Of a stretch of DNA of 64,000 nt, positions 7,627-61,651 are shown piece by piece. The stretch is taken from contig OY987273.1 in assembly GCA_963920665.1 (NCBI GenBank), positions 6,264,501-6,328,500 of the forward strand, written 5' to 3'. A program made the translations under genes and the position numbers. The first letter of the stretch is position 1; every line of letters begins with the position of its first letter. This DNA comes from Straminergon stramineum. Taxonomy: Eukaryota; Streptophyta; Bryopsida; Hypnales; Calliergonaceae. Under the pieces are notes generated by a model. That model saw only the letters and a program-made list of their open reading frames with translations. It did not search any database and had not been told where the DNA came from.

Positions 7627-8772
7627 TATCCTCGAGTCGACGATATCAAGAGAACTCAATATGTAATTAACAATCATGGACTCCATGAGAAGATGGAACG
7701 GTCTGAATTCCTGAGACTCATTCGTCATATCCTCGAGTCGACGATATCTATTTAATTTAATACTATGTGGGTCTTATCGTCGACACGAGGATAGGTCTGA
7801 GTTTAATATTCCTTCAAATGATAATGATTTTATATTATAATGGATGATATCCATCTTAAAGTTTAATGTTGGAAAATTTATATTTCAAGAAGTTTTATTG
7901 TCGACTCGACAATATGAAAATCTTGTAATTTGGGTCCCTAGTTCATTAATCGTAAAATATTTTAGAAAAGTATTTGTGTAATTGTCTTATCGTTGACTCG
8001 AGGATAAGTCACATTTCCAAGAATAACCTCTATTATCGATAAAAATGAATGGGACTCCAAATAAGATTGTATCGAAGGAAGGTTAATATGTTTTTTATTC
8101 TCAAGAGGTTATCGTCGACTCAGTGATACTCATGTTATCCTTGTGCATAATCCTCTAATTTTCATTTGTTTTCTAAACTGTGTTTATGAAATATAATATA
8201 CTTCTTGACATAATATACTTCTTCGACGATGTTTTGTTGGTGTTCCTTGCAATGTCTCTGTCACTTTATCTTGGATTTGATGATAGCCTTTATGTCCCTT
8301 TAGAGGTTTTGTTACCCTCGACTCGATGATAATTATTTTATTTTGGAATGCATTAGTCTAATTATCTATTTACTCATGAATGTGAAATTTATATATTCAC
8401 AAATAATATCTTCTATATATCATAATTGAGGAGAAGCTTTGCATATGATACTGTTGGAAGGTTTACATTTTTGGTCTCACACGTGATTATTGTCGAGTCG
8501 ACAATACCCATTTCTAAATTGGACAGTCACATTCTATTTTCTATATCATTAAGAACTTGATAATTAATAGAGTCACATTCTACGTCATTTAGAAATAGTC
8601 AGAATTTCCCGTACATTATTGGACCACTCATTTGTTTGTTGTTTCTTGAAGTCTTTCTGAATTTATTACTTCACCTGAAAAAAACATTTAGAAATTATTC
8701 ACGGGGAAACGTTTTGTAGTTACAAATTCTGAGTTAAAGACAATTATTTACTCTATCCTCGGTTCAAGGATA
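7627..8772. promoter_or_regulatory. Cluster of nine 19-bp palindromes in the leader intron (copy A)
   Basis: Nine 19-bp elements start at 7627, 7728, 7775, 7896, 7988, 8110, 8313, 8488 and 8754. Examples: TATCCTCGAGTCGACGATA (7627), TATTGTCGACTCGACAATA (7896, perfect arms), TATTGTCGAGTCGACAATA (8488, perfect arms), TATCCTCGGTTCAAGGATA (8754). Spacing is irregular, 47-266 bp. All lie between the donor at 7380 and the acceptor at 9014. Differences from the consensus TATC(G/C)TCGA(G/C)TCGA(G/C)GATA are mostly C-to-T or G-to-A at CG sites. Role unknown; candidates are binding sites for a dimeric protein, an intronic enhancer or a methylation target. Confidence 0.85.
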
Positions 8773-9014
8773 GACATATGTATTTTGTGATTATTGTGTC
8801 AACCAATTTGATTTGTGTTATCTACAATTCCAATTGATGAAGAGTTCACATCGATTTGAGGATAAGAATTCTCTTTGTAATATATTGAAAAATAGATTGT
8901 GTATAATGTATATTTCATATAGTCTTCTGTTTGAAATTGAGTGTGATAGATTTAGACAACTATGTGTTGTTCTCGTATCTGAGATAATTGTTCTCATGCA
9001 CCAATTGGCTCTAG

Positions 9015-11872
9015 CCCGCAGAATGGATATTCATGGACCTGAAGATTTTGCAAACCCGGTGCCTACGTTACACCCTGATGTCTGCACATGTGACGGGATT
9101 CCTCATGCGAAGTGGAACTTTAAACCAGTCACTCTCCGTAATGAAGCAGGGGACGATGTTGCAAATGCAGTCTTACAAAGTGTTGATCCAGATGTTGTGG
9201 TAGACAACGATGGGAAGCCTCTTGGTGATGGTCGAGTTTCTGTTCAAATTGTGTAGTCCTTGTGCGAGGCAAAAGTCCCAACCGGGTGGATGTAGTCAAT
9301 TCACTCTTGGCACATCAAGCAAGTTTTTCTCTTTGGTGTCAGTTTGTATGACCATGACCAGAGACATATTTATAACACGGCCATGAATGCTACTAATAGA
9401 AGAATTCATAAAGGGATTTGATCCTATGAAAGCTTTTGAGAGAGAATGGAAATTAGTTATCCCCCAAAAGAGACCCTCCTAGTTCCTGAAGCAATCACTG
9501 AAGTCTCTACCAAAACTTGTTGTCCAAACAATTGTTTGCAGCCTTTTCCGCGTGGGCAAATTCAAGCCATTCGTTCTGAACTCCATGTAAACGATGGGGT
9601 ATATGCTCGGAAGAAGTGTCTTCTTGAAGTGCATAGGCACATCCACAAAGATCCTGCTAGCAAAGAGTGGATTATTTTGAAAGGAAGGGAAGTGTGTCCC
9701 ACTGCATGGTGGACCATTCATGGGGTTTCGAAGGCTACCTTTTATAGGTACAAAGAGATGGCTAAGGATGGGAAGCAAGTAGAGGCACATGGGAATTTGG
9801 GGTCCAAAAAACCACGGAAACATATTGTGCAAGCTACTGCAACACTTCGAACACTAGTGGTTCCTGAAGCTGACAAAATGCCACACAAAATGAGGACACT
9901 AGAATCAGGGGAGAAAGTCCCTGCAATGGTTTTGCCGTCTGCAATTTGGTGGAGTGATCAATTACCAAAAATCAATGAGGCCAATGCAACTTTAAATTTG
10001 CAACCGATTTCTTCGAGTGGCTTGAGCAACATTCAACATGCTTCTTTCCCAAAATTTGCTCCAAAAGCACGTGGAGATAGTTTTGCTCGATGTGGCTTGT
10101 GTGATAAATACAAGCAATTGAGGAGCGCATGCACTCCCCTTTCATACGCGCAAGAGAGGTGGACCGTTGCTTTGGATACCCACCTTGTGGGCCAAAGGGC
10201 CCATAGAGAACTGTACTATACAAATCGACATGTTTCTGAAACATATCCTGAGAAGATGCTAACCATTATCCATGATAAAATGGATCACTCCAAGACCGCT
10301 TCTCCACACTTCTCTCACAAAACTAAAGCAACGGATTCCTACATGAAAATGCCTGTTGCAGTTACGGGTATGATTGCTCATGGGCATGGGGATGTTCGAT
10401 ATGTACACTATGGTTTAGACATTTTTTCGACAAATTCAAATCATACCATTGGGTCCATCGCAAAGTTGTTGCATGATGTTGAAGAACCACCAAAGAATTC
10501 ATCGTGCAAATTATTCTTTGAAAAGGAGGTGCAATCTACATTAACCAAGGCGATTTTGGAAGAGTCAGATATTTGCTTGGACTCTCTCCTTCCTCCTCCG
10601 GAAGAATCAAATCCAGTTAAACCTTTACCACCAATATTGACTTTGCAATTGGATAATGCATCAGGGGACAATAAGAATAGATGGGTTTTTGCTTTTTGCT
10701 CCCTACTTATATATAAAGGGATTTTCCGCAAAGTGTACATCAATTTCCTCATTGTTGGGCACACTCATGAAGACATTGACACTCTTTTTGGTCAATGGAG
10801 CACTAAATTGAAGACAAACAACTATCCAATACTCCCGAAACTCATGAAATCCTTCCTGGATTGCGAAACGCACCTCGTCATTCCTCATCTCATTGAGGAA
10901 GTTCTTGATTTCAAGCAATATGTAGATGGGTATTTGGGCACAGGAGGAGATTTTTTGGAAGGTCATTCTAGGTCCCAGCAGTTCAAGTTTTACATAGATT
11001 CCAGTGGATGGCCTTTGATGGAGTATAAAAATTTGTGTACGGACAAAAAATGGTTGCCAAAGGACGGCAAAGGAATTCGCTTGTGGTCTGAGATTGAAGA
11101 CGGATGTCCAATAGTTCCAAGCGGTGATCCACCACCTCTAGTTCCTGAGAAGATGCGTTCTCTCGATGAGATCAAGAGAGTTTTGAACAGTTTCATTGCA
11201 CACTAGAGTGGAATGGCAGATGATGACCAATCTGGAGAATTCAAGAGGAAAAATGGCCCTATAAAAGAGTATTGGAAAGGTGTTCAAGCAGCTCTTGATG
11301 CACCTCTAGAGCCGTGTGAGACATTACTACATGGATTTTGGCCGGCTTTGAGGATCATCCATCATGAGGAAGAACGCAGGGAGAGGGATGGTACACTACC
11401 TAAAGGGGATGCAGAGGATGCACCCTTTGTAGGACGAAGGCGTGATCGTCCCTATGCTTCTTTCCATATTAATCGCGATATGTTTGCAAGTTATTTTGTC
11501 GTGGTGCAGCTTGCTAATGGTGACTCCAAGCCATTATGGCTTCTTAGAGCCATTATGAATTCGAATCCGGATCTAGGGCATATGAATATGATCCAAATCC
11601 ACTATTGGATGCCAGCTTGAGATCGACACATTAACATGGAAACATATGATGGATGGGACACAAAAAAAGGGAATGTGTGGCGTGAAGATCGAGCAATAAC
11701 CCCAACATGGTCGAGCATAGATTGTATCATGACTGCTTGGAAGCCACGTATGCAAGAGGGGACTTTAGATCCAAAGGTGGCAATTCCAAAGCCACAAATT
11801 GACATCATCAAAGCATTAGTGGAAGCCTTCACGGCTAACTCAAACGATGATGAGTCTATGGCGGAAGGATGA
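9015..11872 (+). pseudogene. DUF7869-type transposase-like protein, disabled (copy A)
   Basis: One reading frame runs from ATG 9023 to TGA 11870, broken by in-frame stops at 9254 (TAG), 9293 (TAG), 9419 (TGA), 9437 (TGA), 11204 (TAG) and 11618 (TGA). The longest open piece is 9446-11206 (586 aa). Visible: a Cys pair near its start (CCPNNC); a helix-turn-helix-like GVSKATFYRYK; a CGLCDKYKQL zinc-knuckle-like pair; then a core with IHDKMDH, LTLQLDNASGDNKNR and GHTHEDIDTLFGQWS. I know the last two as hallmarks of the DUF7869 family of plants and invertebrates. The spaced Asp residues suggest an RNase-H-fold DDE-type nuclease, which is an inference. The C-terminal piece has YDGWD..W and TAWKPR. 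The acceptor CTCTAG before 9015 and donor at 7380 define a leader intron. Decay is by substitution, not indels. Confidence 0.8.
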
Positions 11873-14260
11873 ATAGTATGTAGGTATAAAAGTAGTTTTT
11901 GTTGTAGGGTGTGAAGTGCCATGGACTTTGCATTTACATGTTTTGAGATGTTCACATAAATATATTTTGTCCATTTTATGAGGGTAGTTTGATTGTATTA
12001 GAATTGTTGATTTCTATTAATAGTATATTCTATTTTCTTATTTTTCTCCAATGTTCTGCATTAAGTGTATTCATTTGAATTATTTGTAATAAAGATGTTT
12101 TAGATGTTAAAGTTTGGCATCAACAACCTAAAGATTAGTCCTTTCATAGATGCACCTCTCAATTTCAAGAAATGTCTCAAATGATAACATCTTGCATGAT
12201 TTAAAGTGTGTATTTTTAATAAAATAAAAATGTTCAAAAGATGAATGCGGCTTCTTCTTGCTATTTATAGCAATAGTAAATTAATTAAATATGTACTTCG
12301 ACATTTTTAAGTCTCAATTTATTGAATTGTCTCAATTTAATGAACTCTTTTGTTTTCTAAATATAGAAGTGAATTAAAATGAGACCGTAGCTTGTCTCAA
12401 TTTAACAAATAAGGCCTTTTCTGCAGTTCATATTAAACTTCAACCATGTGCCCATGTCATAGATAACTCATGTTTTTGCTTTTTTGTAGAAGCAAAGTAC
12501 TACATATGTGGATTAAGTAGTTACGGAGCATGTATGCACGACTTTCATTATGAATGAATGTTGATGTATTTTGAGTTGGACGTACACTTGAAATTGATGA
12601 GCATTTTAAAATTGGTAATGATCTTGGAGTTATTAGAATCCTCCACATTGTTTGGTAGTGTTGGCTTGCATGAAAAGCATTAAATCATGATATTATGAGA
12701 AGTGTAATTCTTTCAGTTGATGGTTGTTGGATTGGCAAGTTTTTGTTTCAAATTTTATGGTCTGTCAATCAATCATATATAGTTGAAGATTTTGAAGAGG
12801 ACAATGTAAATGGAACCCTTAAACTTTTGTTAGTTTATCACTCGAATAGGTTAATTGAAATTAGCTTATAAAGAACTATGGTCCCCTTGGTGTTAAAATG
12901 AACTTTGAAGAATTGGTTAGGTTTCCATGACCTCAATTGAGTCCATTCTTGGTTACAATTTTTGAAAGTTTTGCATAAAATGGAATTACAAAATTTTACA
13001 TAGACACGTAGCCACATACAAGTTGAATTTTCATCATAAATTTATGATAAATTTATAAAGATAGAAAAATTCATAAGCTTTGTGGAAATATAATTTTTTT
13101 TACTATTAATGCCTCAAACCAAAAGTTATGACCAAATAAGCTCCAAGTAGGGGATAGAAGCAAGAAAAACAAATTTGAAAATCTTTGAAGTGGGAAAATG
13201 TAAACTTTTTTTGCATAGAATATACTTTTGTCGATTTGGAAAGCTTTAATTCCTTTAATTTGGATTTCTTATGAGGAAGTTATGGGCATTTTTTGAGGAC
13301 TTACAACATCTTCTTGAAAGACGATCTTATATTTTTTTAAATTAAATTTTTCTTTTTTGTAGACCCTCAATTCAATTTTCCTCTTAAAAGATTTAAAGCT
13401 CAAAACTGTTCATTACAAAAAATTTCAGTTAAAATGTATTCGAAGCCAAAAAATCTACTACCACAACATATTGAAAAACTTAAAAACTTGTCTTCTTCAC
13501 TTTAAATGCAAATGTCTTGCAATATTAGCGGTCAAAAATTCTGAAATTTTTTCCATACTTTCTCATACTAGTTATGTCATTGACATGTTAACTTGTAGAA
13601 TCCTACAATTAGATGTGGAAAAAGAAGATTTTCTTTTCTCTACTCTATGTTGTAGAATTAGTAGTTTTGCGTGTATTTGCCCAATAAAAAGGACTTGGTC
13701 CTTTTGGGGTTAAAAAGTTAATTAAAATTTAATTGTTTCTTTTGATCCTATTTTTGCTATTCTTCTCTTTAGTGACCAAACCCAGCCTGGCCTTTTGTGT
13801 TCTATTGTGTTTCTTTTTAATGCAATGGGTTCGTTTAGTTCCTAAAAAAGAAGAAAAAAAAAGAAAGGAAATTGCAAGTTTGCAACACCCTAATGACCCT
13901 GTGGTCAAATTCTAACACAAGCACTATGGTTGTTTGCCCCTAAATACTTTTGGGCCTTTGATTGCACTCATTGCAAATATCAATTTACAATACGCCAAAT
14001 TTTTTTGGCAAAGAAAAATAAAAGAATTCAAGATTTCTCCAAGTGGCTTATAGAAAGCCAAAAATGGATATTTGCACCTTTGTACTTTTTTATTTATTAC
14101 AAAGTACTAAAGTGATAATTTTAATTTTTAAATGTTATGGTGGTCCTCCAAATTATAGCATTCTTCCACATAATGGAAGGATTATATGTTTTTTATGACT
14201 AATCTTGCAATTTCATCTAAGATTTCTTCATTGAGAGATCCACCCTTCATTGTTTGCCCA
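11873..14260. other. AT-rich stretch without recognisable genes
   Basis: This follows the last stop of the transposase-like gene and probably holds its 3' UTR and the rest of the element, because no right boundary is visible. Short open frames (for example 13471-13713 and 13733-13915, plus strand) are AT-rich with no family features. I see no repeats, terminal structures or RNA genes. Confidence 0.6.
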
Positions 14261-14264
14261 TCCG

Positions 14265-17320: not shown

Positions 17321-17324
17321 AAGA

Positions 17325-21860: not shown

Positions 21861-22079
21861 ACCAACTCTCACCCATGCTCGTCCCACCTATATATCCACT
21901 TGCCCAAGACCTTTAGGGACCTTTCATTGAGGCTTCTTGTCTTGTATCCTTTAGTGGCTACATGCATAAACCTTGAGTATTTATTATTTATTACATTCAT
22001 CCACCCTTCTTACCTTACTAGTTGTGGACCACCTAAACTCCCAAAGGAGTTTTTCGAGCCGTATACATGACAATCATTC

Positions 22080-29157: not shown

Positions 29158-30746
29158 CTATGAGAGGACAGAGTCCCAAAAGACGAATGCGAGTGGTTTC
29201 ATGAACCATGGTTTATCCATGAGGAGGTCCACCACTTGTGCACATGTTGGTCTTCTGTTAAGATTAGGATCACCTAGTTCACGTAACTTCATGGCAAAGT
29301 ACCTTGATGACTCAGGATTTCTAAAAAGTCCTTGTCATATTCAACCATGTGTTCTATGTTCGTGGGTTGGGTCAACTTTCCAATCAAATACAAGTTGGAT
29401 TTCATTGAATATTGGTAGGTCGCTTTCATTACATCCAGACTCGTATTTGAACCCTCTGGCCCAAACAAATAGAACAACTTTAGAGCTGCCCACCAATGGC
29501 CCACCCTCTCAGCATCAAGTTTTTCCGGGTTTTCATATCCAAAATGCGAGGGAGCTCCTTCTTGAATACAACTTGCAATTCTCCAATCACAAATCCCAAT
29601 GTTGATCTCTTCATCCGAGAAGGGGGGATAATGCAACAATATGTTCACAGGTGACAAGTCATTGTGCAGCACCCCCGCATTGTGCACGAGACTTGTCACA
29701 TAAACCAAGGCCTACACCAACTTCACCTTGTGTCTTTGGAAGAGGCTAATTTCTTTTTGTTGTTGGCCTGCAAGTTGCTTCACCAACTTGATTTCATGCC
29801 ATTCCACATGCGGCACCACCTTCTCATTCAAATGAAGCAACTCTTTGAAATTACCACCATTCCATCACAAAGTGTATGCTTCCGTTGTTTGGTGGTGGAC
29901 AGCTAGGAATTTAATAATGGCCAAGTGATTCAACGGGCATACCAAAGCCTCCACTGACCTCTCCACCCTCACATCGCATTTGTTCCTTTGCTTTGACAAT
30001 TTCCTCGCAAAATGTACATGTGCTGGGATCGTGGACATCCCTTCAATGCGTACCTTGCACACCTTTGTGTATCCTCCTTGACAATCAAATCTAATAAGTA
30101 GGACCACCTTGGCCTCTGAGTAGACCCACATGATACATGAACCACTATCTCTCATAAATGCAGCCTTCAATGCATCCATTTGCCACCCCATACCCCTAGC
30201 TTCAGACCTTGACAATCTTTTTGCTGCAATTTGCCACCAATCCATCTTCTCACGAAACTCCTAGGCCCTATCTGTTCCTCCAAATCCTAGCACTATAGGT
30301 TGCAACTCAAGCATAAAATTCTTGGTGTTGAATATACCAATTTGTAGGCAATTGCCAATCCACATTTGCCATTGGTTGAAATACACTTCATCCACATTTG
30401 CATAGTCCGAAGATTCCTTGCATTTCCTTGTAATAAAGTTCTCTAACTCATCCTTCAAGGATTGGATGCCTGCCTCTCTATTTTTCAAGTATTTCCTCTC
30501 CAAATATTGTACACTTTTTTCCTCATACCATTGTAGACAAGCCTCATGTGTATAGGTCATATACCATGCTGGAAGATAGGTAGGGTCCTTGTTGTCTGCT
30601 ATCTTAGACTTCTTTGTTTTGGATGGTCCTGCACCCCCAATTACCTCCTTCGTAGTTATATCTACAAGAAACATTGTAGGATGGTCAAGTTCCTTATCCC
30701 AAGCAGATATCCAACCCATACTACTTCCTTCCTTTGAAATAGACAT
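29158..30746 (-). pseudogene. Protein-kinase-fold protein with degenerate catalytic motifs, disabled
   Basis: Minus strand, likely ATG at 30746 (MSISKEGS). One frame to about 29310 with stops at 30261 (TAG) and 29865 (TGA), then a frameshift and kinase C-terminal sequence to TAG 29158. Motifs in order: helical N-terminal region (YLERKYLKNREAGIQSLKDE); N-lobe/hinge-like CPLNHLAIIKFLAVHH and WNGGNFKELL; catalytic loop LHNDLSPVNIL (about 29666-29637), where HRD reads HND but Asp and Asn remain; metal loop CDWR (about 29590), where DFG reads DWR; then NRRPTCAQVVDLL, typical of kinase subdomain XI. Phe-to-Trp may be a family trait; Gly-to-Arg is probably decay. It is preceded by the same leader and GC-rich block as the family-X genes, so it is probably element-borne. 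Confidence 0.65.
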
Positions 30747-42575: not shown

Positions 42576-43345
42576 TTGAAAGAAGCTTCTTGTAGATGTT
42601 TGGTCTTTGGAGGGCAACAACTTGGTTTGAGTGGTTTAAAAGACCGTTCAAAGGAGGTGGCTTTGTCATTACTTTTTCTAAATCAAGGCTCTGATTCATA
42701 TGATAATATTGTTTTAAGAACCCATAGGCAAGGGACAATATGGCTAGTCGGGGTGAGGGGAGGAGGACTGCCATTAACAATACGAGAAGAGCCACAAAGG
42801 AGTGGGACCCTTGGTTACTTGTAGACACTAACTAGTAGTTTGCGGGAAATATAGGGAGATGTGTTTTCTATGGGTGGACCTCTGTATTTGTACAAAAGCA
42901 GACATTCTATCACTTTGGATTTGGTGACAAGACTGCATTGGAGCAATGTATGAAAATCCCATGGGCAGTATTGCAAAAGTTTAGGACTTGAGGTGGGGTT
43001 GTTATGAAGGAAATGAACTTTGAAGGCCTTATTTGTTAAATTGAGACAAAATGACAATTTTGAGACTTTGAAAAATGGATGCAAAGCTCCAGCAAATTAC
43101 GAGTTGTTGAACCCAACGATATGTAGAGTCGGCCATGTAACAACGATAGAAAGCTTTGAACAAGCTGCCCCAATTGACTTGAAACATGAGATTAGAATTG
43201 CATCAATACAATAGAAGATGTGAGACTTTCTTTCAAATAGAGGACCTAAAGTACTCCGTACAAAGAAAGGGAGTCATTTTAAAGTGAGTAAGTTGGAATT
43301 ACTTGTGCGGTTTAATACAAAAAGAGTATGTAAATATTCTTTGTA
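42576..43345 (+). pseudogene. Unrecognised protein, decayed
   Basis: A single plus-strand frame reads protein-like sequence through several stops. It starts near 42576 (KEASCRCLVFGGQQLGLSGL), crosses TAG 42822 and TAG about 42852, continues GDVFSMGGPLYLYKSRHSI, LDLVTRLHWSNV, KSHGQYCKSLGLEVG, then FVKLRQNDNFETLKNGCK and ANYELLNPTICRVGHVTTIE, past TAG 43212 and a TGA, to LRTKKGSHFKVSKLELLVRF, ending at TAG 43343. Its internal stops are only TAG and TGA. I do not recognise the family. The GC-rich block just upstream suggests the same class of carrier element as the family-X and kinase-type genes. The start codon is not evident. Confidence 0.4.
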
Positions 43346-43589: not shown

Positions 43590-45375
43590 AGTCCTTTAAA
43601 GATATCCTCACGTCGAGAATGATAGTGTGGCCCACTTCCCCCCCCCAAAGACTCGCATAAGCTCAAGCTTTGAGCTCCATTTTCCTTTCGCTTTGACCTT
43701 TGAGTAGCTTGGGGGGCCCCTAAGCCCAAAAGCGATCTTGACCTTCAAGGAGGCTGCTGCAGTAGCGACACATTGACATTGTCTATGTCCAAAAGTCGAG
43801 TCCCTATTATTTTGGAGTCCAGCGAACAGCGATGTTCTCTGAAAATTCTTTGCTTGAAAAGATTGTCGATGGAAGAAGATCGTCTGGCTCCTACAGATTG
43901 CGAGGGACGAGGTTGCTTATCCTCGATCCGGAGAATAGTAACACCAATAGTTGGCTTCCATAACACCCCCCCTTTTGTCATCCTCTAACGCAACCACCAA
44001 CTTCAATCCATCGATGCAGACATTAGGAACTGCAGACGGAGTTGGAACATCATCTTCAAGCCGAGGATGTCCGGGTGCTTCATGCAAGGGTAGTTTTAGT
44101 TTGCGACTCGTTGTCGCGTCCGTTCGCAGTTTTGGTGAGAAGAAATTCCCATGACTTGAGGATGCTCGCTTCAACGGCAACGGAGAGCATATGGGAGTCC
44201 TCACTTGTCGCGCCCCTTAGTGACACTTACCCCCTTAAGCTCACTTCTCAAACACTTAACACCTTAGTGCCACCAAGGTTCACGCTCTCCTAACATTGCA
44301 CATACCACGCACCCACAATGTTAGGTTCCAACTCAAGTCACGGGGTTCCCCATTCCTCCGTGACTCCCAATCCTTTCCTTCCAATACTTAACTCCCACAA
44401 GACACCGAGCATGTCATTTGATGACATGGGGCGGAACTTCCATTGATGTCTAAGCACCCGGTGAGGCACTACTCCCACTGGTGCTAACCGCCCTTGAATG
44501 GGACCCAACTCCCCACTAGGCCCCACCCAACTCATTTCGGGACTTACTAATCGGAACTCACCAAACGGGACTCACACCATGGCCTAGTGTGGAGTGCGAC
44601 ACCACCCAACCGGTATCAAGGAGTGCACAAGCACTCCATGGTAACACACAAGTGGTGGTGAGGCTCCAACACTAACCTCACCACCCGGGGCCACTTAGGC
44701 TCACCATGGCACCATCCGGGAGTGAGGAGGGAAACCACCCCTCCTCATAGTACTCTCTATGGGATTCGGCAGCCCCCCCCCCCCCCCATACTAGAGGTCA
44801 CCGGGAACCCCCAAGATGCACCCTATCTTGGAAGACCACCCATTTCTCCCGATTCGCGCTAGTTTGGGACTCCCGAACTTCCACCCGGCATAACTTTGCG
44901 GTCCAAGATCCAAATCGCACATGCTACCCCATTTTCGACATCTACGCGACGCGTAGATGCCGATGGACTACTCACTTGCTCCATTCGGACAAGTACTCGC
45001 AAAGATATCGCCCTCCAAAGATTCGGGACACTCCTAGCGCGACCGGGACACCCCCAACTTTGAACGCCCATAACTTTTGACTCGCAAGTTCAAATCACGC
45101 GTTCTTTGGACGGCTAGAAGCGTCTTCTCAAGACCTTTCCAAGCATGTATCACACGCCTCCAAGTTCATCCGGATCAGAGCGCTACATCGCTCTGATCGC
45201 TCGGGACTCCTAGTCCCCCTCACCTCATCTCTTGCAAGGCTTGGGGAGTCACCCCCAATGTCCCCCTTGCTCACCAAGGTGGCACGGGCACGCCTTGTGA
45301 TGAGGGTCGTGACATCACTGGTCCACGACTTGGGGGGCTGTCTACGACCCCGTCTTCAACATCCCCCTTGGAATA
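43590..45375. other. GC-rich block without supported gene, possibly LTR-like
   Basis: Base composition shifts sharply to about half GC, with many CG dinucleotides. Open frames on both strands overlap and none shows a domain. Such GC-rich, gene-free blocks of 1-2 kb can be long terminal repeats of retrotransposons, but no second copy, polypurine tract, primer site or TG..CA ends were identified, so this is only a suggestion. It includes a 15-base C run at 44773-44787. Confidence 0.4.
44773..44787. repeat. Homopolymer run of 15 C
   Basis: CAG is followed by fifteen C residues and then ATA. Such a run could form a G-quadruplex or i-motif and is also prone to assembly error. Confidence 0.9.
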
Positions 45376-45773: not shown

Positions 45774-46807
45774 CTACTTTACAGCGTACTTCCTACGTCG
45801 GCCTTGCTCTATGATTATGCCTATTCCCAGGAGCTCGTATCTAGAACCCATGACCTTCGAGGATTCTCTCATCCCATCTATGAGCTCCTCCACCTTGTAG
45901 TCCTCGGCTCCCAATGGGTTCAAACCAATGCGGTTTTCCTCAACATATGTTTGCATTTGGCTCGGTTGGCAATTTGAATCTAGATGTCTGAGCTATGGTA
46001 GAAGTTCCCCCATGAGGATGTCGTCTCTACAATTATGGTGCCTCCAAATGTCTAGGAATATGGCATTCCCATTTTCATTGCAAACACTCTTGTTTGGAGA
46101 GTCGTCAATGAGAAGCATATTATCCGAGGTGAAGGACATGCTCCCGCTCAGATTGCAGAACAAGGTCTCGGAGAGCACTTTCATACAATGCACTTGCTCA
46201 TCGAGATGAAAGAACTTCCCTAGAGAGTACTCTATCTTTTTGCATAGTTTGTGACTAAGGATATCATAGGGTGCTCTACAACCATTGAACAGGTGTCCAA
46301 CAATGGATTTTGTGTTACACTTTAGCATCGTGGTCCACACTAAGACCTTACTTGCGATCATCGAAACCTGCCGGAGGAATTCACCCAGATTTTGCCGAGC
46401 AAATATCGCCTTGGGTCCGATGATCGTGGGATTCCTGTGGCAGAGAACATTGTCTTCGAGCTTATACGGTTTGAATTTCTCCCCATAGGACTTCATCGTT
46501 GTTTGACAAAGTATGCCGTTCAAGTCGAAGACAATGTTCAGCCACTTCCTTCGCGGTGGAGGAAGTACAGGAGGCACATTCCTCGGCACGATTTCTCTCC
46601 CACCCTTCGATACTACCTAATGAAAACAGAACAACAAAAAAATGGAGTTACCTGTTTAAATGCAGAAATGGGAGATCCGGAAAGCGGATAGAAGCATTTA
46701 GTTCCCCTAATCGACTGCGGTCTCCCATTAGAAAGTGCTTTCATTGGCAATGGACAGTGCACGCTTTTATTTTTTTGTAGCTGAGCAACAAAAACATTGA
46801 AAGCCAA
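45774..46807 (-). pseudogene. FCP1/NIF-like phosphatase homologue, two exons, catalytic motif altered
   Basis: On the minus strand an upstream exon (about 46807-46655, ending ISAFKQ before donor GTAACT) joins in phase to an exon starting after TTTTCATTAG at about 46617. The second exon reads PPRRKWLNIVFDLNGILCQT (nucleophile loop), KVLVWTTMLKCNTKSIVG and LLIDDSPNKS..GNAIFLDIW, the order of FCP1-homology/NLI-interacting-factor phosphatases. The family motif DxDG(T/V) reads DLNGI: the first Asp is kept, the second is Asn. The frame meets TAG at 45993 and continues RHLDSNCQPSQMQTYVEENR to a stop at 45774, so the natural C-terminus is probably about 70 codons longer. It lies about 300 bp downstream of the ParB-type gene on the same strand. 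No ATG is evident for the first exon. Confidence 0.6.
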
Positions 46808-47108: not shown

Positions 47109-47374
47109 TCAATCGAAATCATAAGGGTCAGAAGGTTGTATCTGAGTGGTTCCTTCTAGATCCTCTAGTGCCACTTCTGCTGCTAAAGGTTGTCCTTTCT
47201 CGCTCTCTTCCGCATCGTTGTCGAGAAGGTCTTCATCACCAACTTCATAGTCCACCCTTTCTTCCTCCACAGAAAGGGGAGATTGCACCTCCAAGTGGAC
47301 TTCACGTGATTCCTCACACACTGCTACATTATGAGGCTCAGACACAAAAGTTCGTGCTACCTCCTCGACAACAT

Positions 47375-47393
47375 TATCGTCGCCTCGACGATA
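47375..47393. promoter_or_regulatory. 19-bp palindrome within exon 3 coding sequence, arms extend to 12 bp
   Basis: TATCGTCGCCTCGACGATA. With its flanks the exact arms are ACATTATCGTCG and CGACGATAATGT, with a 3-base centre. It encodes part of YRRGDDNV on the minus strand. Confidence 0.8.
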
Positions 47394-47557
47394 ATGTTCA
47401 TCTCCTTGAATGGTGTCTTCTTGTTGAGCAACGTCAAGGGCAGCCTCGGGAACTAAGACTTCGAAGGCCTCTTCATCTGGAGATGGGATCCTTGGCATTT
47501 GGGATGTTGGAGTTGAGATGACGAGGTCCTCATGCGCTAGTGAAATCGCCTCATCTT

Positions 47558-47576
47558 TACCCTCGACTCGAGGATA
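47558..47576. promoter_or_regulatory. 19-bp palindrome within exon 3 coding sequence
   Basis: TACCCTCGACTCGAGGATA: one mismatch from a perfect 9-bp-arm palindrome. It encodes YPRVEGK on the minus strand. Confidence 0.75.
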
Positions 47577-48654
47577 GGATAGCCCATTGACCAAGTGGGC
47601 CATTTCTTGCATGGCTGGAGTGCTACTTGACGGCACCTGAGGTTGTGGAGTCGAAGCAACAGAGAATGTAATCGAACAGCTCTGGGATTGGCTCTTCTGG
47701 GACTGCAACGCACTCAAGAGCACTACGAACTGGCTTTGTAGCTCATCATATTTAGCGTCCAACTTCTCTTGGAGTTCAGTAATTTTCTCATTGGCAACCT
47801 TGTTGCCCACTAGTAGCTCAACAACTAGCCTTTCTATTTCCTCCTGCTCCTTTTGCCTAGCTATCCTCTTCTCCCTGGCTTCCTGGTCTTTCTTCCACTA
47901 GTCCTTCTCGACCTTCACCACCACACATGAGGGTGCAATGACAGGTTTTAGCTTGACTTGCTGGGGAACACCATCTACGTCATCGTCATCATCTGATGAG
48001 TGCAAATGATCGATATCGTCATCATCATTGATGATGATGGGGTTATCCAATCTTGTTGAGGATTGACTTTCTTTAGCTGCACGATTCCCTTGGAATCCGA
48101 ACACGTTGGTAATGAAAACATCCTCATTGTTTCTTCCTCGTTCCTCTCTAGTTTTCTCCTCCCAATGTCTTTCAAACTCGGTGTCGGTCTCTACATCCTC
48201 GTCATCTTGTTGAGTTTGCAATACGACCGGAACAGTAGGGGCATCCATCCATGTGTGGAGCTGGAATGTGTTCGTCCCGAATTGATCGATTCCTTCAATG
48301 CTAGGATCAGTACTTACATGTGGCTCGACAGCTTCCCTCTCGTGGTTCCCTACGACATTACTTTCTAGCGGTGACTCCAATGTCATAGGTGGCGATGGAG
48401 GTGAGTTGGAGTGAACGACCAAAGGTCCACCACTTGTGGGATGATTGTACAGTAACGAATAAGGTGAATTTGAAATCATGAAGTCATTTTTATCCATCTT
48501 ATTCGCTAGGAGAGCAATTTTTGAGTATGGCTTTGCATCTTCTCTATCACTAAAGCCATAGAGGTACACACCGAACATCTACAAATCACACACAAATATT
48601 TTAGATTTTGTATTTCTAAATCAATGTTGAATGTATATCCAAGGTACATGATAT

Positions 48655-48673
48655 TATTGTCGACCCGAGGATA
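48655..48673. promoter_or_regulatory. 19-bp palindrome in intron 2 of the ParB-type gene
   Basis: TATTGTCGACCCGAGGATA, inside the 194-base intron between 48773 and 48578. The mismatches to consensus are C-to-T type. Confidence 0.75.
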
Positions 48674-50164
48674 ACAATGGATTGCACGTACTTCAAATAT
48701 AAGCTTAGAAAAATGAAAGAACTATCATTCTAGATACGAGAATATGATTTCTAGGAGAGAAGATCCACTAACCTTCGTGGCTAGCATGAACTTTGGGCCT
48801 GCATAGATGCCAAGAACATTTTCATCTAGCTTTGCGAAGGCTTGCAATATGTCTAGATAAAACTCCATCTGCAATTCAGTAGGACGTATCCTCCACTTGG
48901 CTTCCATATTCTTGGACGGATCAATATAGTATACACACCCGGAAGGTGTGTCATATTTTGATTTGAGGCACATGCGGGTGGCCGTGGCAAAGTCATTATC
49001 CTTCTTGAAAAGGAAGAGGAGCAGCACGTCCGGAGCTTTTCCTCTGTTTGTCATGTTATTCAACATCTCTGCTCTATTGGGGACATAAGTAGATATGACG
49101 GAGTCATACCCAGTAAGCCTTAGAGCTGCAAAAGAAGTTATAGCCTTCATGTCCTCCTTCCCACCAAAAATGAAGAGCCAGATATTGGGCTCAATCATTT
49201 TCGGTTCTAGTTTCTGATCAAGGAAAGTCAAGAAGGGGTCAGGAGCACTTTTAGTTTCAGTTGGATTTGATTGTGGCACCACCCTAATATCTAGGACTGC
49301 CAAGTTAACTTCTTGTTGATGATAGGTATAATTTGTGCTAGTGACAAGCACCTTGGCAATGAAGTCAATTCCTCGTACCTACACTCCTCCGGTAGGTTTA
49401 GGAAGTTGGTACTTTAGCTTCATAAACCTCCTGAACTTGTATAGGACCTCTGGAAACTGTTTGTCAAGATCCTTCGCTCACTTCCGCCACGCATCGTTCC
49501 TGAGCCATTTCTTGAAATACTCAGCACTAGGATGCGAGAGAAGGAAATCCCACGATGCAGAAGTAAACCAGTGCCTCGCCTTCCATACTCTCCAGGTTGT
49601 ATCAATGACATCGCCACCATTGTCTATGAACTTCAGAGAGGGTTTGAAGTCCATCAAATCCTGGAGAACAACTTTCTTGCGCTTCCTCCGCTCTATCCAA
49701 TCACCGTGTGCAATGTTGTCGAGAACTAGTATTTTTGTTCTCACAATAGAGACTTTTGGGTATATTGATTTTCGCCCCAGGGTTTCACCTAGTAGGTGCT
49801 GTGCAAAAACTCCAAAGTCAATGTCCGTGAACTATCCACAATGCTTGAAAAACTCTCTTTTCAAGGACATTGCTTTGATCTTGAAACCTTTAATTTCCTT
49901 GAACAATTTCAAGGAAAATGGTTCCATCAACTATCCTTCGGAATACCTTGTCAAAAATCAATTCTAGTATGCCCAGAGATCATCCGGTAGGGTGATGATC
50001 TGAATTTCATTTTTCAGATCTATAGTCCCTTTGATGGAAGCACCATCCTTTTCAGGATTAATATTTTGGAATCTCTCAACAACTACATCCATGAAGCTCT
50101 GCACTTTCCGATACAATAATTCAGTTACAATCTGACAAAGAAATGATAGAATTTGTTTTCGTAC

Positions 50165-50329
50165 TATTGTCGGGTCGACGATAAAACTATGTTAATAAAA
50201 ACATAGATAGTCCATACATAAAGTAATTCACTAAATAGTAGTAAATAATAGAATTATTCATATTCGATATGATCAATTTACATTTAAATTCTCAAAGGAA
50301 AAGAAGAAGTTATCCTCGACTCGATGATA
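50165..50329. promoter_or_regulatory. Two 19-bp palindromes in intron 1 of the ParB-type gene
   Basis: TATTGTCGGGTCGACGATA (50165-50183), near the 3' splice site, and TATCCTCGACTCGATGATA (50311-50329), about 20 bases inside the 5' splice site. The intron is only about 220 bases, so the palindromes make up a sizeable share of it. Confidence 0.8.
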
Positions 50330-51821
50330 ATGAGGAATACCAATTGCATACCTTATAGTTTGTCAAGCTGAAGACGGCTTTGTTGTTCCAAGTTAAATCC
50401 TCCCAACGAATGTTTGTCGGATGCTTGCAAGCGAGCCAGATGTTTCGGTAGCTAATGATTTGGTTACCCCACGTTGGTTGAGCATGATCCAAATGATTAG
50501 TGCAGTTGTAGAATTTTGAGATGTTTCGTAATTTGTTTGGATCAAGGGTCCAGACAATAAAAGTATCCCAAGTCTGAAGTTCTACTCGACGAGATTCTCC
50601 ACAGCCTCCTTTTTGAAGCTCTTTTGAAGTCGCGATGTTGTGTTGACCATTGATAATCATGAACTGCCCATTCATGATTTCTTCCCACTTCTCTGGCTTT
50701 TTTTTCAAAAGCTAATTATGAGAATCGACAGGGGTAAGGCAAACCTTCTGCCTCTACTTCATGTCAATGAGTTGAATGAGTTCATTCATCACAGCAGCAA
50801 CGATATCCTTTTGCAGTGTTCGAATGACATATTGATCACTCGCCATGATGTACTATTTGATGTCCATGGATACTGTTTCCTGGCCGAGTAAAAAACAAGC
50901 CTTGTGGTCAGCCCAGAAGTTTCTTTGAATTAAAGCAAACTTCTCGTAGTCTGGTTGTGGAGGATCAGAGGATGCTGGACTTGCTAAAACAGTCGTGAGC
51001 GCTGATCTTGAACTTCCAGCAACTGCAATTCCTTCGGGAAGGCTTCTCTTTTTTTTTCTTGCTAGATAGAGGTGCTTTTGTTGAGATGCTGTCTCTTTTT
51101 CTGGTCATCGATTTCGTATGACCTGGTCTTATTGCTTTGCTTGCTGAACCACTGGCTATAGACCCATCTTGTTGATGACTCTCGGATTCCCCTCTCTGAC
51201 CTTGTGAGGGGTTTCTACCAAGTGATGGTACAAGCTCGACATTTGCCAAGGCATATCGATCAAGAGTTTGGAAAATATGGCGCAATCTAGTTGCATTGGA
51301 CTTTGCTGTGCCATTTTTCCAGGGAACGTAGCTAGATTTCTCAAATTCCTTGTTGAAGGACTCCATTTGCGACCCCTCTAAGAGTGTCATGAGGTTCTCG
51401 AGATCAAACTTCCTGTAACAAGAATTTACATTGATTACAATGGAGTGACATTGATCTTTCTAGTTCCCATTCTCATCAACTTCGCAGAGCATAATGACAA
51501 CATAATTGCTCTGATGATCCTCAATCACTGTCACTTTCTCTTTCATATTCCAGGGTAGGTAGCTTGTTTTTCCCTGTATTCGGTATCTAAGATAGACATA
51601 GTTTTTCCAACGGTTCACACCGAAGGTCCACGTGCTGATATGATCTTTGAACTCCCATAGCATTCCGTAGCTATCTACCATTTCATCGATGAAGGGCTCA
51701 TCGTTCAAGGGGTTTACAAAGGGCTGAAGATGATGCGCTGTTACAAAATAATCGTAGAGATCTTGCTTCTCCATCTTATAATCCTGCCAAGTGATTTGTG
51801 TGAATCTATTAGAAATTGATC

Positions 51822-52492
51822 TATCATCAATTCGACGATAAGTTTATTTGGATTGCTGGAGGTGAAAATTCCATTGGTCATATAATTATGTATCGTTTTT
51901 TAAACGTTTTATATATCTCATTAACTCGATGACAACTGCAGACAGGTGAGGATATATAGATTTCAATGAACATTAACACTCATTTCTTAATATCTGAACG
52001 ATTTCTTACTATGACGTTGGTTTTCAGGCATGAAATAAGTCATATTTCATATCACGAATGTCCAAATGTTTCTTTTTTATTATTAATTTCTTCTTGTTCC
52101 CTCTTCTTATTGGTGGAGGAATCTTTAAATGCTTCTGAAGGTATCGTCGAGTCGACGATACGGGTAGAGACTAGTATTGAGTCGCGAAGTTTTCTTAAAT
52201 ATTTTATATGTCATTCCATAAATTTGTTATTTGAGATTTTATCGTCAACTCGATGATAAGGTGGCTAACTTGGGAGATGATGCTTTTTCTGTTAATTAAA
52301 ATTTTTTTGCTATTCCTTGGTGGGAATGTGGGAATTAGAATTTGGAAGTTATCAAGCTTTTCTTTAGATTATCATTGATGACTATATCTTCAAGTCGATG
52401 ATACGTTTCTTCTATAATCAAAACCTTGAACATGTAGAGTCTGCATAATAATCTGTTCACTAGGTTTGTAGTGTACCCTCGACTCGACGATA
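51822..52492. promoter_or_regulatory. Cluster of five 19-bp palindromes in the leader intron of the ParB-type gene
   Basis: Starts: 51822 (TATCATCAATTCGACGATA), 52142 (TATCGTCGAGTCGACGATA, perfect arms), 52240 (TATCGTCAACTCGATGATA), 52385 (TATCTTCAAGTCGATGATA) and 52474 (TACCCTCGACTCGACGATA). A more decayed copy may lie near 51913. They lie upstream of the acceptor at 51784, hence in the leader intron, the same place as in the transposase-like gene. Confidence 0.85.
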
Positions 52493-56600: not shown

Positions 56601-57736
56601 ATTTGTCCAGTTACATTGTCGTAGAAAAAGATGTTGAGCATGTTTTTGTAATCAAAATATACGTTATCCATTTTTTTCCTACTTTCATGAACCCTCAAAT
56701 GTATTTATACATAGGATTAGTTTTGGGGATCGTGGAGAAGAATTGCACTTCCCAATCCTTTGTGCTTTTGAATCCTAAATCTATAAGTTTCTAGGAAACA
56801 AAAATGAAATATTCGTAAACAAGGGTTACACTTTTTTTTTGAACTCATGGATTTAAGTTGTTGGAATCAAGTTGACAAAAAACATGTAGAAGTTAGTAAT
56901 TATTTGAAGATTTGAAATTCAGAAGAATACCAAGTTTATAGAATTTTACTTGCACCCTACATTTAAGATAAATTATACATTATGAAGAACAATCCAGTTA
57001 GAAGACAAGAGATGTGGGTGCTATGAAATAGAGACTATCATTAATAAGGACTAATTAAAAAGCAGTTGTAATTGCTACAAGGGTAGGAGCAAAATTGGAA
57101 ATGAATACATGTAGTAGCAATTTATTCATCACTGAAATGAACTGAAGGGGAAATTGTTTTTTTGGTATGACATATCTCTATAGGATTGTTCAAGCACTTC
57201 AATTTGAGGAACTGTACTTCTAGAACTTAAGGATTTGAAAATTTTTTCCATTGCTCAAATAATGTGAATGTTAGGGTTTATGATAAGTGAATTCAAGGGT
57301 TGGATTAAATGAAAATGAGAATATATTATTTTAGGTTTCTTTTATAATTTTTCAATTTTTTGTTCTTCATATTCTAATATGTATTTGGTAAATTTTTGCT
57401 TCTTTCTTTATCTTTGGTTAGAATCACCTTTCGGCCTAAAGAGCTATCCATTTGCAATTTCATTTTTAGTGATTATTTATCATGATTTTTTCATTTGTAC
57501 AGGGGGTTCTTTTTTTATTCCCTTTTTTTTTCCTTGGGATCACTTTGATTTTCATGTTATGTCCTTATGGTTTTTTGTTGAAAGCCTTTTATGAACTTGA
57601 GAACCCTTTAATAATCTTTTTTTTTTTTTTAAACTTCTTTCTTTTTGACAAAGAATCTTTGTTTGTCTCTTTATGGTGGCATACATTAAGTTCTCTTTCG
57701 TTTTGTAAAGCGACTACATATAGCGCTCCACCATAA
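53601..57736. other. AT-rich non-coding stretch with one shared block
   Basis: 54262-54460 matches 1735-1965 (see that entry). Otherwise closed frames and AT-rich sequence; the T-rich 57350-57700 gives hydrophobic-looking frames that are low-complexity only. The stretch ends abruptly where copy B of the large repeat begins. Confidence 0.55.
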
Positions 57737-59370
57737 ATAAAAGTGTTTCATGTATTTATAGAACAGCACTAAGTTTTTAAATTGTCACACCATGCAATTT
57801 CAATTATGGCATCATGGTGCCTCTAGAACATCATTGATTTCAATCACATCGACTCTTATTATACATAAAGGCAATTAGGCATTAATTATATCAATCAATA
57901 ATATTCATACCAATGCATGAACATCTATATGAAGGTTATGTCCATAGTTCTTCAATATCCTATGACAATATTGATTGCGCCACTAACTTCATTGAAGTGT
58001 AATGTAAATTAATTCATTTGTTAGAAGTCTAAAGTTTGAAAAAAGCATAAGTACTTGCATTCCATGAAATGATTTTCTTTGCAATGAAGAATATTTTGTA
58101 GAGTTCAAATATTCAAGGTTTATGATTATTTTATTATTTTTAGTAATAAAACTATGAGTACAAAGGAGCATGATTTCATATTTTCATGTCATCATACAAG
58201 TAGAAATTGTTTAGTGTACACCAAAATAATTCTTAATGTCTACATAATCTATTTTGAAGAGTTAAATCATTATAACAAACAATGATTCAAATACTACTAG
58301 AATTTCAAATGCATATTACATTGCCATCAGGGAATGACATATGCAAATCACTTGACAAATACATATCATTAAATCCTAAACCCTACAAGTATACTATAAA
58401 TAAATACTACAAATTGAGTTTACATTTCAATGAATAAGAATTATATAAGTATAAAAAAACATAGAATTGTAGTACAATTGAAAGATTGAATTCATATCAA
58501 ATATTCCATGTTGAGTATATGAAGTAGTATTCATACTCAGAGTAAGAGATGAATTACTATAGCATACAATAATTATAAATGGATTGCCATATTTCATGTT
58601 TACATGAAACCGCTCACAAATGACGGTAAATGAATTATGGAAAACATTGTAGTAAAAAATGTCCCTAAAATGCTAAGCTTTTCATCCTTAAAGTCCGAAG
58701 GCCATTTTTCTTTCAAAAAACACTCAAAATTGCTACTTCTATTGCATTCATGTAAGGAATCAGAAAAAATGCTTTTTCTAGAATCTAACTGTAGCATCTT
58801 CTACCAAACATTTCTTGGATCATGTAGTGAAAATTTCATGATATTTGACCAAATGCATTGAAAGATATTAGCATTTACAGTGAAAGAATTTTTTTTTTTG
58901 AATAAGACGGTCCAATTGCTTGCTAAATAAGAAACTCTATATCTTTCATATTAGTAATCCAAATGGGATGAATCAAAGCTTCCCAATTAGTCAAAAATAT
59001 AATCTACAAGAACAAAATAATAAAAGAAAATATTTCAATTTTTTATAAATTTTGTTTCCTACTTGTTCTCCCCATTTTCAGATTATTGTGGCATATATTT
59101 TGCTCCCAACCACTGATTGAAATACAAATTATATTCCCCCAAAGCTAATAAGTTTTTATATCTTACAAGAAAGTTTCAAAAAAAATCACTAACAATTGAG
59201 CTCATAGGAACCTACCCAAAATCCATATTGTCCCTTGTAAGCACATTGGGACTTTAGGGGTTAAAGAGTACTTCCATACAATCAAGCGATGAACTTCACA
59301 TAAATTGCATCTCCTAAGAAACTTAGGAGATTCCAAATTTTTTCCCTACAAATTTGGAATTGTTCACAAT

Positions 59371-59395
59371 CCTAACCCCTAACCCTAACCCCTAA
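59371..59395. repeat. Interstitial telomere-like repeats (copy B)
   Basis: CCTAACCCCTAACCCTAACCCCTAA: about half the length of the copy A stretch, with CCCCTAA variants. Confidence 0.8.
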
Positions 59396-59582
59396 GGTGT
59401 GAACCCTACAATGCACATAATTAGGATCCCAAACCGTTGAAGGAAGGATTTTTTAAGAAACCTGGACACTGGACAAAGTATAAGCAAAGAAGCAATTATT
59501 AGGAATCCCCTAGTAATGAGAGTCACATGAACAAAAATTAAGACAATGACTTGAATAGCAGATACACTATAAATGAATGAAT

Positions 59583-59866
59583 TGTTTTGGTTGGTATTAG
59601 TAAAGCCTTTTTTTGGTTGGTATTAGCAAAGATTTTTTTTGGTTGATATTAGCAAAGACTGTTTTTGGTTGATATTAGCAAAGACTGTTTTGGGTTGGTA
59701 TTAGCAAAGACTGTTTTGGGTTGATATTAGCAAAGCCTTTTTTTGGTTGGTATTAGCAAAGCCTTTTTTTGGTTGGTATTAGCAAAGACTTTTTTTGGTT
59801 GGTACTAGTAAAGCCTTTTTTGACTAGTCTTAGTGAAGCCTTTCTGGGCTGGTATTAGAGAAACCC
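59583..59866 (+). repeat. Minisatellite, 11 copies (copy B)
   Basis: Same unit as 6740-6996 but eleven units. Several carry GTTTTGGGTTGATATTAG variants not seen in copy A. Confidence 0.9.
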
Positions 59867-59869
59867 TTT

Positions 59870-60264
59870 TGGGGATGCTTTTGTTCTTCAGCCGCATCTT
59901 TATGCCGCAAAGCTGACAGAAAGCGGCACATAAAGAGGCATTTAAGTGCTGCCACAAAAAGTGGACCATGAACATTGTCAGATGCCATGTATTTCCAAAG
60001 AATTTGAATTCCCGCGCCAATTCTTCCCCGCCCCTCGATCGGCGGAAGCTCAAGCTCTCTCCCTTGCAACTTTCACATCACAACTTTGTTTTGCCTACAG
60101 AGTTGCGCCATTTGATTGTTCTCATTTTTTGTTGCTCATCTCTAACCTATAGGAAGCTTTAGCATTTTGTTTTCCCTATTTTTAATCCACCTTTGTTTTC
60201 AATAGGCTTGTTTAGATAGTGGGGACTTTAAGAAGACGAGTGTGTACATTGACTGCAGGTGCTG
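59870..60264 (+). other. Presumed leader exon (copy B)
   Basis: Counterpart of 7000-7379. It ends at GTGCTG followed by donor GTAAGTAG at 60265. Donor and exon boundary are conserved between copies. Confidence 0.5.
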
Positions 60265-60511
60265 GTAAGTAGTATTGTGCTTTGACTTCTGATTTGTACA
60301 ATACACACTACTTCCCGTTATTGTTGTACCTAACATCCCATTGATTTTCAATTAGTAGTTTCATTAGCAAAAGAGTGAAACATAGAAATTTGATTGCTAT
60401 TGTGTCCAATGAGAGTGTTGGTGTTGTCCATCATCGAAATGGTGAGGAATACGTCTCCCGATATTTTTGCTGAAAATTATGAAGGATCCTATATTATATC
60501 AATATAGAGTA

Positions 60512-61651
60512 TATCCTCAAGTCGACGATATCAAGAGAATTCAATATATAATTGAGAATAGTGGAGTCTAGGAGAAGATAGAACAGTCTGAATTCTTGAG
60601 ACTCATCCATCGTATGCTTGAGTTGACGATATCTATTTAATTTAGTAATATGTGGGTCTTATCGTCGACATGAGGATAGGACTTAGTTTTATATTCCTAT
60701 GAATGATATCGATTTTATATTATAAAGGACGATATTCGTCTTGAAGTATAATGTTGGAAGGTTTATATTTCAAGAAGTTTTATCGTCGACTCGATGATAT
60801 TTAAATCTCGTAATTTTGGTACCTAGTTTAATAATCGTAAAATATTTTAGAAAAGTATTTGTCTAATGGTCATATTGTCAACTCAAGGATAAGTCACATT
60901 TTCAAGAATAACCTCTATTATTGATAAGAATTTATTGGACTCCAAGTTAGATTATAACTAAGAAAGGTTAATATTTTTTTATTCTCAGGAGGATATCGTT
61001 GACTTAGTGGTACTCATTTTTACTTCATGCATAATCCTTTCATTTTCATTTGTTTTCTAAATTGAGTTTATAAATGATAATATACATCCGTACATTATTC
61101 GACTATGTTTTGTTCGTGTTCTTGGGAATGTCTCTAACACATTCTCTTAGATTTGATGATAGCCTTCATGTCCGTTTAGAGGTTTTGTTATCCTCAATTC
61201 GATGATATTTATTTTATTTAGGAATACATTCGTCTTATTATCTATTTTCTCATGAATGTGAAATTTATATATTCACAATTAATATCTTCTATATATCGTA
61301 ATTGACGATAAGCCCTTTATATGATAATGTTGGAAGGTTTACATTTTTGGATTCACACATGATTATTGTCGAGTCAATGATACGCATTTCTAAATTCGAC
61401 AGTCACATTCTGAGTCATATATGACTAAGATCTTGATAATTAATGAAGAGCCACACTCTACGTCACTTAGGAAGAGTCAAAATGTCCCTTACATTATTGG
61501 ACCAATGATTTTCTGTGTTGTGGCTTGAAGTCTTTTTGAATTTATTACTTCATTTGAAAAATACATTTAGAAATTATTCACGAGGAAACGTTTTGTAGTT
61601 ACAAATTCTGAGTTAAAGACAATTATTTACTCTATCCTTGGTTCGAGGATA
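60512..61651. promoter_or_regulatory. Palindrome cluster in the leader intron (copy B), more decayed
   Basis: Counterparts of all nine copy A elements start at 60512, 60613, 60660, 60781, 60873, 60994, 61189, 61364 and 61633. The best kept is TATCGTCGACTCGATGATA at 60781. A related 17-bp palindrome TATCGTAATTGACGATA (61294-61310) is recognisable here but eroded in copy A (8420-8436). Changes between copies are almost all C/T or G/A. Confidence 0.85.

Follow-up and report, generated by a model that had tools for sequence, protein, structure and literature searches.

An array of 19-base palindromes in a large moss transposon family: candidate sites for a dimeric, element-encoded regulator

The window analysed here, a stretch of 64,000 nucleotides from the moss Straminergon stramineum (contig OY987273.1, positions 6,264,501 to 6,328,500), contains parts of two copies of one DNA transposon, 18–22 kb in length and bounded by 26-bp terminal inverted repeats, whose two genes are interspersed with copies of a 19-base palindrome. 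We consider it probable, at roughly 0.68, that these palindromes form an array of cis-acting sites belonging to a single family of cut-and-paste transposons and are bound by a dimeric, most likely element-encoded regulator. This reading builds on the element, its ends and its sites, on the conservation of the sites as DNA and on the shift of the motif in a sister subfamily; from these we infer the binding, the binder and its effect.

Palindromes within one two-gene transposon

At up to three mismatches, the window holds 28 palindrome sites, against 0.00 expected and a largest number of 0 in 100 dinucleotide shuffles, bearing out the judgement of a preliminary description, made from the letters of this DNA, that chance occurrence is very unlikely. 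The positions given there agree with ours, the exact number being lower than the ‘about 30’ it named. All 28 sites lie inside the two element copies (1–12418 and 43023–64000) and none in the 30.6 kb between them. Half-sites, counted by themselves, number 28 in the window versus 2.5 expected, all belonging to the listed sites except one at 43918. Across the genome (326 Mb in 59 contigs), the palindrome occurs at 1,935 places at up to two mismatches, the same pattern read backward at 2.

The sites fall into four groups. A single perfect copy, noted before, stands at 200–218 in the 5′ part of the ParB-type gene of element 1, the remainder of which lies in L023. Nine copies, as previously described, occupy 7627–8772 in the leader of the DUF7869 gene of element 1: 7627–7645 and 7728–7746 (no mismatch), 7775–7793 and 7988–8006 (one), 7896–7914, 8313–8331 and 8488–8506 (two), and 8110–8128 and 8754–8772 (three). 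The corresponding leader of element 2 had been credited with the same nine and retains eight (60512–61651), namely 60512–60530 and 60781–60799 (one mismatch), 60660–60678 (two), and 60613–60631, 60873–60891, 61189–61207, 61364–61382 and 61633–61651 (three); the ninth partner, at 60994, has decayed to six mismatches. Because these clusters at 7.6–8.8 and 60.5–61.6 kb are copies of one sequence, belonging to a stretch of 6.3 kb that is 90% identical, they do not count as independent.

The remaining ten sites (47375–52492) belong to the ParB-type gene of element 2 and are divided as the preliminary description had it: 47375–47393 and 47558–47576 (one mismatch each) are within an open coding exon, and the other eight in introns or the leader. 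Intronic copies are found at 48655–48673 and 50165–50183 (two mismatches each); a further copy, at 50311–50329 (one), begins 22 nucleotides past an inferred splice donor and has a counterpart at the equivalent place in L037, and another, at 51822–51840 (three), is located near the inferred acceptor ahead of the first ParB-type exon. The leader carries 52142–52160 (none), 52240–52258 (two), 52385–52403 (three) and 52474–52492 (one). Those at 47375, 47558, 48655, 50165 and 52385 are kept across subfamilies. A position in the 5′ leader intron, initially proposed as the common feature, thus describes part of the array, which also extends to other introns, to coding exons and to one end of a miniature element; the intron positions themselves derive from splice consensus and homology, and do not apply to 47375 and 47558.

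The genes carrying the motif had been taken for two unrelated mobile families. They are instead the two genes of a single transposon, arranged head to head between its terminal inverted repeats: around exact palindromes, ParB-type and DUF7869 genes repeatedly lie on opposite strands, facing away from each other, and a divergent ParB-type exon is found within 30 kb upstream (median 11.8 kb) in 58 of the 74 DUF7869 matches listed. Three of the listed matches have such an exon upstream on the same strand and five have one downstream; 16 have none. The listed matches, 74 for DUF7869 and 150 for the ParB-type gene, mean at least 74 and at least 150 in the genome.

The ends of the element were found by comparing copies. 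They read AAGGCC, and the 26-bp inverted repeat, which starts AAGGCCTTATTCG, occurs 250 times in the genome at up to two mismatches, the reversed control not at all. Target duplications of 4 bp are identical in all four large copies of which both ends were seen (TTCT, TTTG, AGAA and CCGG). Element 1 starts outside the window at L023:1669 (C11:6256169) and has its right part at 1–12418, closed by an inverted repeat with one substitution at 12393–12418 (minus strand), to give 20,750 bp with TTCT at either flank. Element 2 opens with a repeat likewise bearing one substitution at 43023–43048 (plus strand), fills 43023–64000 with its left part and ends outside the window at L024:1296, for a total of 22,274 bp between TTTG duplications. 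The two other copies measure 18,146 and 18,065 bp.

To place palindromes beyond the window, 50 exact copies, all on contigs C1 and C2, were assigned individually: 27 were assigned to the large element, 22 to a 255-bp repeat and one, at L043, to neither. For twenty-six, the assignment follows from an element gene no more than 20 kb away. Among the remaining 24, seven were seen within the 255-bp repeat, two are in listed copies and 13 match it (88–94% over 122–125 bases), and the exact site at L050 belongs to a sequence matching the DUF7869 leader at 91–97%. An even genomic spread, which would have spoken against any tie to these genes, was not seen among these 50 sites, 49 of which are in the element family or its small relative. 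The solitary exact-type site at L043 (C1:9486811-9486951) sits in a short tandem duplication that matches neither element by blastn.

The inverted ends of the 255-bp repeat resemble those of the large element, and its 4-bp duplications are perfect in five of six cases and agree in three of four letters in the other; by these features, the repeat is a miniature relative of the large element. Forty copies, out of 809 candidates, were scored at 94–100%. In each of the 22 miniature copies identified, 20 of which were picked through their exact palindromes, the palindrome directly follows the left repeat. That the palindromes are themselves mobile mini-insertions was rejected, given that diverged copies share positions and that solitary sites sit in the 255-bp element.

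A word conserved as DNA and shifted in a sister subfamily

To compare the palindromes with their surroundings, the ParB-type gene was aligned across eight copies, drawn from two subfamilies that share six sites. At the 16 fixed positions, 1242 of 1440 comparisons are identical (86%), as against 97 of 270 (36%) at the free letters (positions 5, 10 and 15) and 3891 of 7914 (49%) in the flanks; ranked among 5,846 windows, the fixed positions of the individual sites come in the top 0.1, 0.7, 2.1, 2.4, 3.3 and 14%. Since the fixed positions are kept while the free letters vary, the conserved word is TATC-N-TCGA-N-TCGA-N-GATA. The letters previously given as G or C are almost free, position 5 being C in 88, G in 71, A in 55 and T in 20 of 234 sites at up to four mismatches. 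Two of the six shared sites are exonic; the protein encoded by their exon has just ~43% identity between subfamilies. The palindrome is so constrained as to persist in coding exons and near splice donors across proteins ~40% identical.

More distant relatives were reached through predicted proteins that run past an exon end into the intron, the tails of which were scanned for the translation of the site; these homologs come from other contigs, some of which may stem from this genome. Following the methyltransferase-like exon, the site appears in 12 of 55 tails (19 of them with at least eight residues), giving 13 matches against a shuffled mean of 0.165 and maximum of 3, and 2 matches in 11,583 residues of the protein cores. 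Following the ParB-like exon, it appears in 17 of 26 tails of at least eight residues (from 40 proteins; shuffled mean 0.22, maximum 3), with 3 matches in 16,892 core residues. One of these 17, P0181, is contig L037, itself found via the motif, and the other site-bearing homologs are 36–76% identical to the L037 protein. With a slightly wider residue set, the site starts 17–32 nucleotides past the first inferred donor in 19 of 21 matches, and 15–31 nucleotides past the second in 10 of 14. This spacing is only suggestive, because tails end at the first stop and short tails favour near sites.

Contig L037 (CADCWO010000074.1, 4,235 bp) bears a cyanobacterial bin label and contains three exact and two one-mismatch sites along with a ParB-type gene 29–57% identical by exon. 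Its intron site lies 21 nucleotides past a GTAAGT donor, the window counterpart 22 past GTATGC. As a contig from a cyanobacterial bin that bears an intron-containing gene of the moss transposon type, it is most likely mis-binned moss DNA. It is one of three contigs with an exact palindrome in the prokaryote collection; the others, L035 and L036, carry lone sites, with one element-gene match at E 0.006 in L036 and none in L035. A bacterial operator was rejected on this evidence, two of the three contigs having no good-scoring gene relatives and the third being L037 with its ParB-type gene. A viral origin was likewise set aside, as viral contigs contain no exact palindrome and no relative of the ParB-type exon in a collection that may omit records very close to this genome.

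A further comparison concerns ten diverged DUF7869 copies that were chosen by protein identity alone. In eight of them the leader carries 8–12 sites at up to five mismatches. Six copies with 65–69% DUF7869 identity have an array of the form TATCTTCGASTCGAAGATA, with T at position 5 in 58 of 76 sites of this sister subfamily versus 20 of 234 in the first. The palindrome takes the form TATCCTCGAGTCGAGGATA in one subfamily and TATCTTCGAGTCGAAGATA in the other. The shifted word occurs at 194 genomic places at up to one mismatch, its reversed control at none, and also stands beside the sister subfamily's ParB-type gene (exon 33–49% identical), as far as this partly read gene goes. Among palindrome sites, CpG transitions make up 125 of 399 changes, which would fit methylation of silenced copies.

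Genes, gene products and neighbourhood

In element 1, the DUF7869 gene (plus strand) comprises a leader intron at 7381–9021, inferred from a GTAAGT donor and a CCCGCAG acceptor, and an open frame at 9440–11203 that matches Pfam PF25273 at E 1.5e-43; its counterpart in element 2 (62549–64000, plus strand) is 87% identical and extends beyond the window. The protein is 45–55% identical to named proteins of the mosses Physcomitrium patens and Ceratodon purpureus and is a putative transposase; as to a transposase of the DDE/RNase H type, Pfam gave only DUF7869 for this frame. One stretch resembles a helix-turn-helix by eye; the predicted structure was of low confidence, too poor to use, and a fold search with it matched nothing. 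A literature search returned no paper naming DUF7869.

The ParB-type gene of element 2 lies on the minus strand. Its exon pieces at 50313–51843 contain the motif INGQHSI..S..L, which we take to be ParB-like; Pfam finds no ParB match, and the ParB label of the preliminary description goes no further than this motif. Exon pieces at 48728–49831 encode a middle part whose structural model (mean predicted local distance difference test score 59) weakly resembles DNA methyltransferases, the best match being DNA adenine methyltransferases at E 9.5e-4 and a template-modelling score of 0.30; the consensus of 41 sequences lacks a DPPY-type catalytic motif. A fast-evolving exon at 47112–48578 holds the two exonic palindromes. 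Beyond it, an exon at 45996–46616 (minus strand) matches the NIF family of FCP1-like phosphatases (PF03031, E 9.2e-08), reads DLN at its motif and belongs either to the ParB-type or to a separate gene. Searches of PDB sequences returned nothing for the NIF exon and two chance-level matches for the other profile. The ParB-type protein evolves faster than the DUF7869 protein, and its own gene carries sites in leader, introns and exon.

The two window copies (43019–64000 and 1–12422, duplications included) differ in their relatedness from side to side: their ParB-type genes fall into different subfamilies, with 66% identity at the methyltransferase-like exon, and their DUF7869 sides are 90% identical. 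This disparity makes it likely that recombination between elements accounts for the mixed copies. Next to element 2, an older relative is represented by an end repeat with five substitutions (AAGGCCATATTCATTAAAATGAAAGA) at L024:5918 and an adjoining DUF7869 gene that has diverged. Contig C11, which carries the window, makes up 17.4 of 326 Mb (5%), yet accounts for 32 of the 74 DUF7869 and 85 of the 150 ParB-type matches listed, and is possibly a sex chromosome or another low-recombination chromosome.

Several smaller features were recorded on the way. A 26-bp tandem repeat (TTTTTTTGGTTGGTATTAGCAAAGCC), differing in copy number, lies upstream of both DUF7869 genes at 6740–6999 and 59585–59870, and short runs resembling plant telomeres, CCTAAACCCTAAC, are found inside both elements at 6509–6553 and 59371–59395. 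Between the elements, 29292–29711 gives a weak protein-kinase match (E 9.5e-4) below the Pfam cut-off. Searches for RNA families and tRNAs found none in the 64-kb window.

What may read the sites, and what known systems suggest

Each site can be seen as two half-sites, TATC-N-TCGA and its reverse complement, set one letter apart, and would be read as double-stranded DNA by a protein binding as a symmetric dimer. Most likely this binder is encoded by the element, the product of the ParB/methyltransferase-like gene being the first candidate. By occupying many leader and intron sites in both genes, it may mark the element as its own, and its occupancy would then control chromatin and transcription of the element, either by opening it against silencing or by braking it as copies rise; of the two, opening in the manner of VANC is ranked slightly ahead of braking elongation in the manner of TNPA. 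The 255-bp relative keeps one site just inside an end, which suggests a second use in mobilisation. The shared cis-acting signal of one element system proposed in the preliminary description would stand, its dimeric-protein variant fitting best, once the unrelated gene families are dropped from it.

A more specific version of the element-encoded regulator is a tentative one, to which we give little weight. Here, a protein that joins a ParB-like part to a DNA-methyltransferase fold without catalytic activity, and adjoins an FCP1-like domain, would load at parS-like palindromes through both genes, some 20-odd bases past donors, and spread or stall polymerase, thereby keeping the element open and counted, with motif and protein changing together between subfamilies.

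Several points weigh against the regulator reading as a whole. Two of the ten diverged DUF7869 copies have no convincing leader site, L031 showing one at five mismatches and L024/L033 none in ~4 kb. Some of the shifted leader sites lie within 240-bp tandem repeats that are 69–80% identical, so that the shift does not amount to eleven independent events and arose in part by duplication. Miniature elements and first-subfamily copies from outside the window were selected for an exact palindrome, and kin copies were counted as if separate.

Moreover, the element-encoded factor is a candidate only, and palindromes of this kind would serve just as well for binding by a host dimer. The sites could accordingly be those of a host transcription or chromatin factor, captured for expression in a certain tissue. 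We regard this as unlikely, though it is the rival that fares best: a host role outside the element family is unseen at the exact sites examined, the sister subfamily bears a shifted motif, and arrays of 10–20 sites within gene bodies would be unusual for a borrowed promoter element.

Less probable again is that transposition comes first, i.e. that the transposase or a helper binds the sites to assemble the ends, as TNPA does in CACTA elements, and that the intragenic copies are a by-product. The palindrome next to the left repeat of the miniature copies, most of them exact-palindrome picks, is what this explanation would lead one to expect. In the large copy at L005/L006, however, 587 bp separate the left end from the first weak site, and ~3.6 kb lie between the last site and the right end; the conservation of exonic and intronic sites also speaks against a by-product.

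The question of DNA versus RNA was approached through covariation. Of 234 sites, 85 have complementary letters at positions 5 and 15 versus 71 expected (p 0.026); of 179 distinct sites, 60 do versus 53 expected (p 0.15). Positions 9 and 11 change together in 0 cases versus 6.2 expected (p 0.001). Positions 4 and 16 do so in 9 versus 3.0, all of them complementary (p 0.0007), a result that could mean pairing and so counts against a protein-bound DNA site. The pattern as a whole reads more readily as half-sites than as a hairpin, with the 4/16 result pointing the other way. An RNA-level signal, in which an 8-bp hairpin at each palindrome or pairing between sites in the pre-mRNA steers splicing or retention, would draw on this joint change and on the tight spacing past both inferred donors, but is the least probable of these explanations and its hairpin form is disfavoured, as positions 5 and 15 barely covary, the free letters differ between subfamilies irrespective of pairing, and sites also occur in coding exons as well as in the 255-bp miniature element, for which no transcript is known.

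Three known systems offer comparisons for a dimeric, element-encoded regulator. With ParB/parS, the moss element shares the placing of a palindrome close to a gene whose product has a ParB-like motif; it differs in that the moss protein has no Pfam ParB match and the sites are scattered through introns. What we take to be the parS consensus also differs in its letters from the moss palindrome.

The En/Spm CACTA elements are alike in having a repeated motif and an element-encoded binder, both diverging together between subfamilies, the moss binder being a predicted one; in one report (PMC2613891), TNPA is described as braking elongation, and a large (20.5 kb) multi-exon example is given from soybean. 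CACTA elements end in CACTA with a 3-bp duplication, whereas the moss element ends in AAGGCC with 4 bp; and TNPA motifs are subterminal, whereas the sites of the large moss element are mostly internal and near one end only in the miniature relative.

A likeness is also found in VANDAL21 of Arabidopsis and related elements, where VANC, according to two papers, binds an element motif and removes DNA methylation (PMC5735166, PMC10398659), motif-rich stretches grow by tandem repeats and motifs differ between related families (PMC5735166). The moss element resembles these in repeating a short motif many times over across introns and other non-coding parts, in a motif that differs by family and in growth by tandem repeats. 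In contrast, the VANDAL motif is a 9-base non-palindromic one, and the moss word a 19-base palindrome that is also exonic and apparently stands at a fixed distance from donors; the 4-bp target duplication of the moss element is a further difference from VANDAL21. No protein of VANC name appeared in Pfam scans of the exons, no search aimed at VANC having been made. Titles and abstract openings yielded no earlier account of such an element or motif, and a large two-gene transposon is described here. Few cases are known in which transposons recognise their own sequence specifically, VANC and TNPA among them; if the reading favoured here is true, the moss element adds one, and its two subfamilies, each with its own motif within the same genome, constitute a natural experiment on how a reader and its sites change together.

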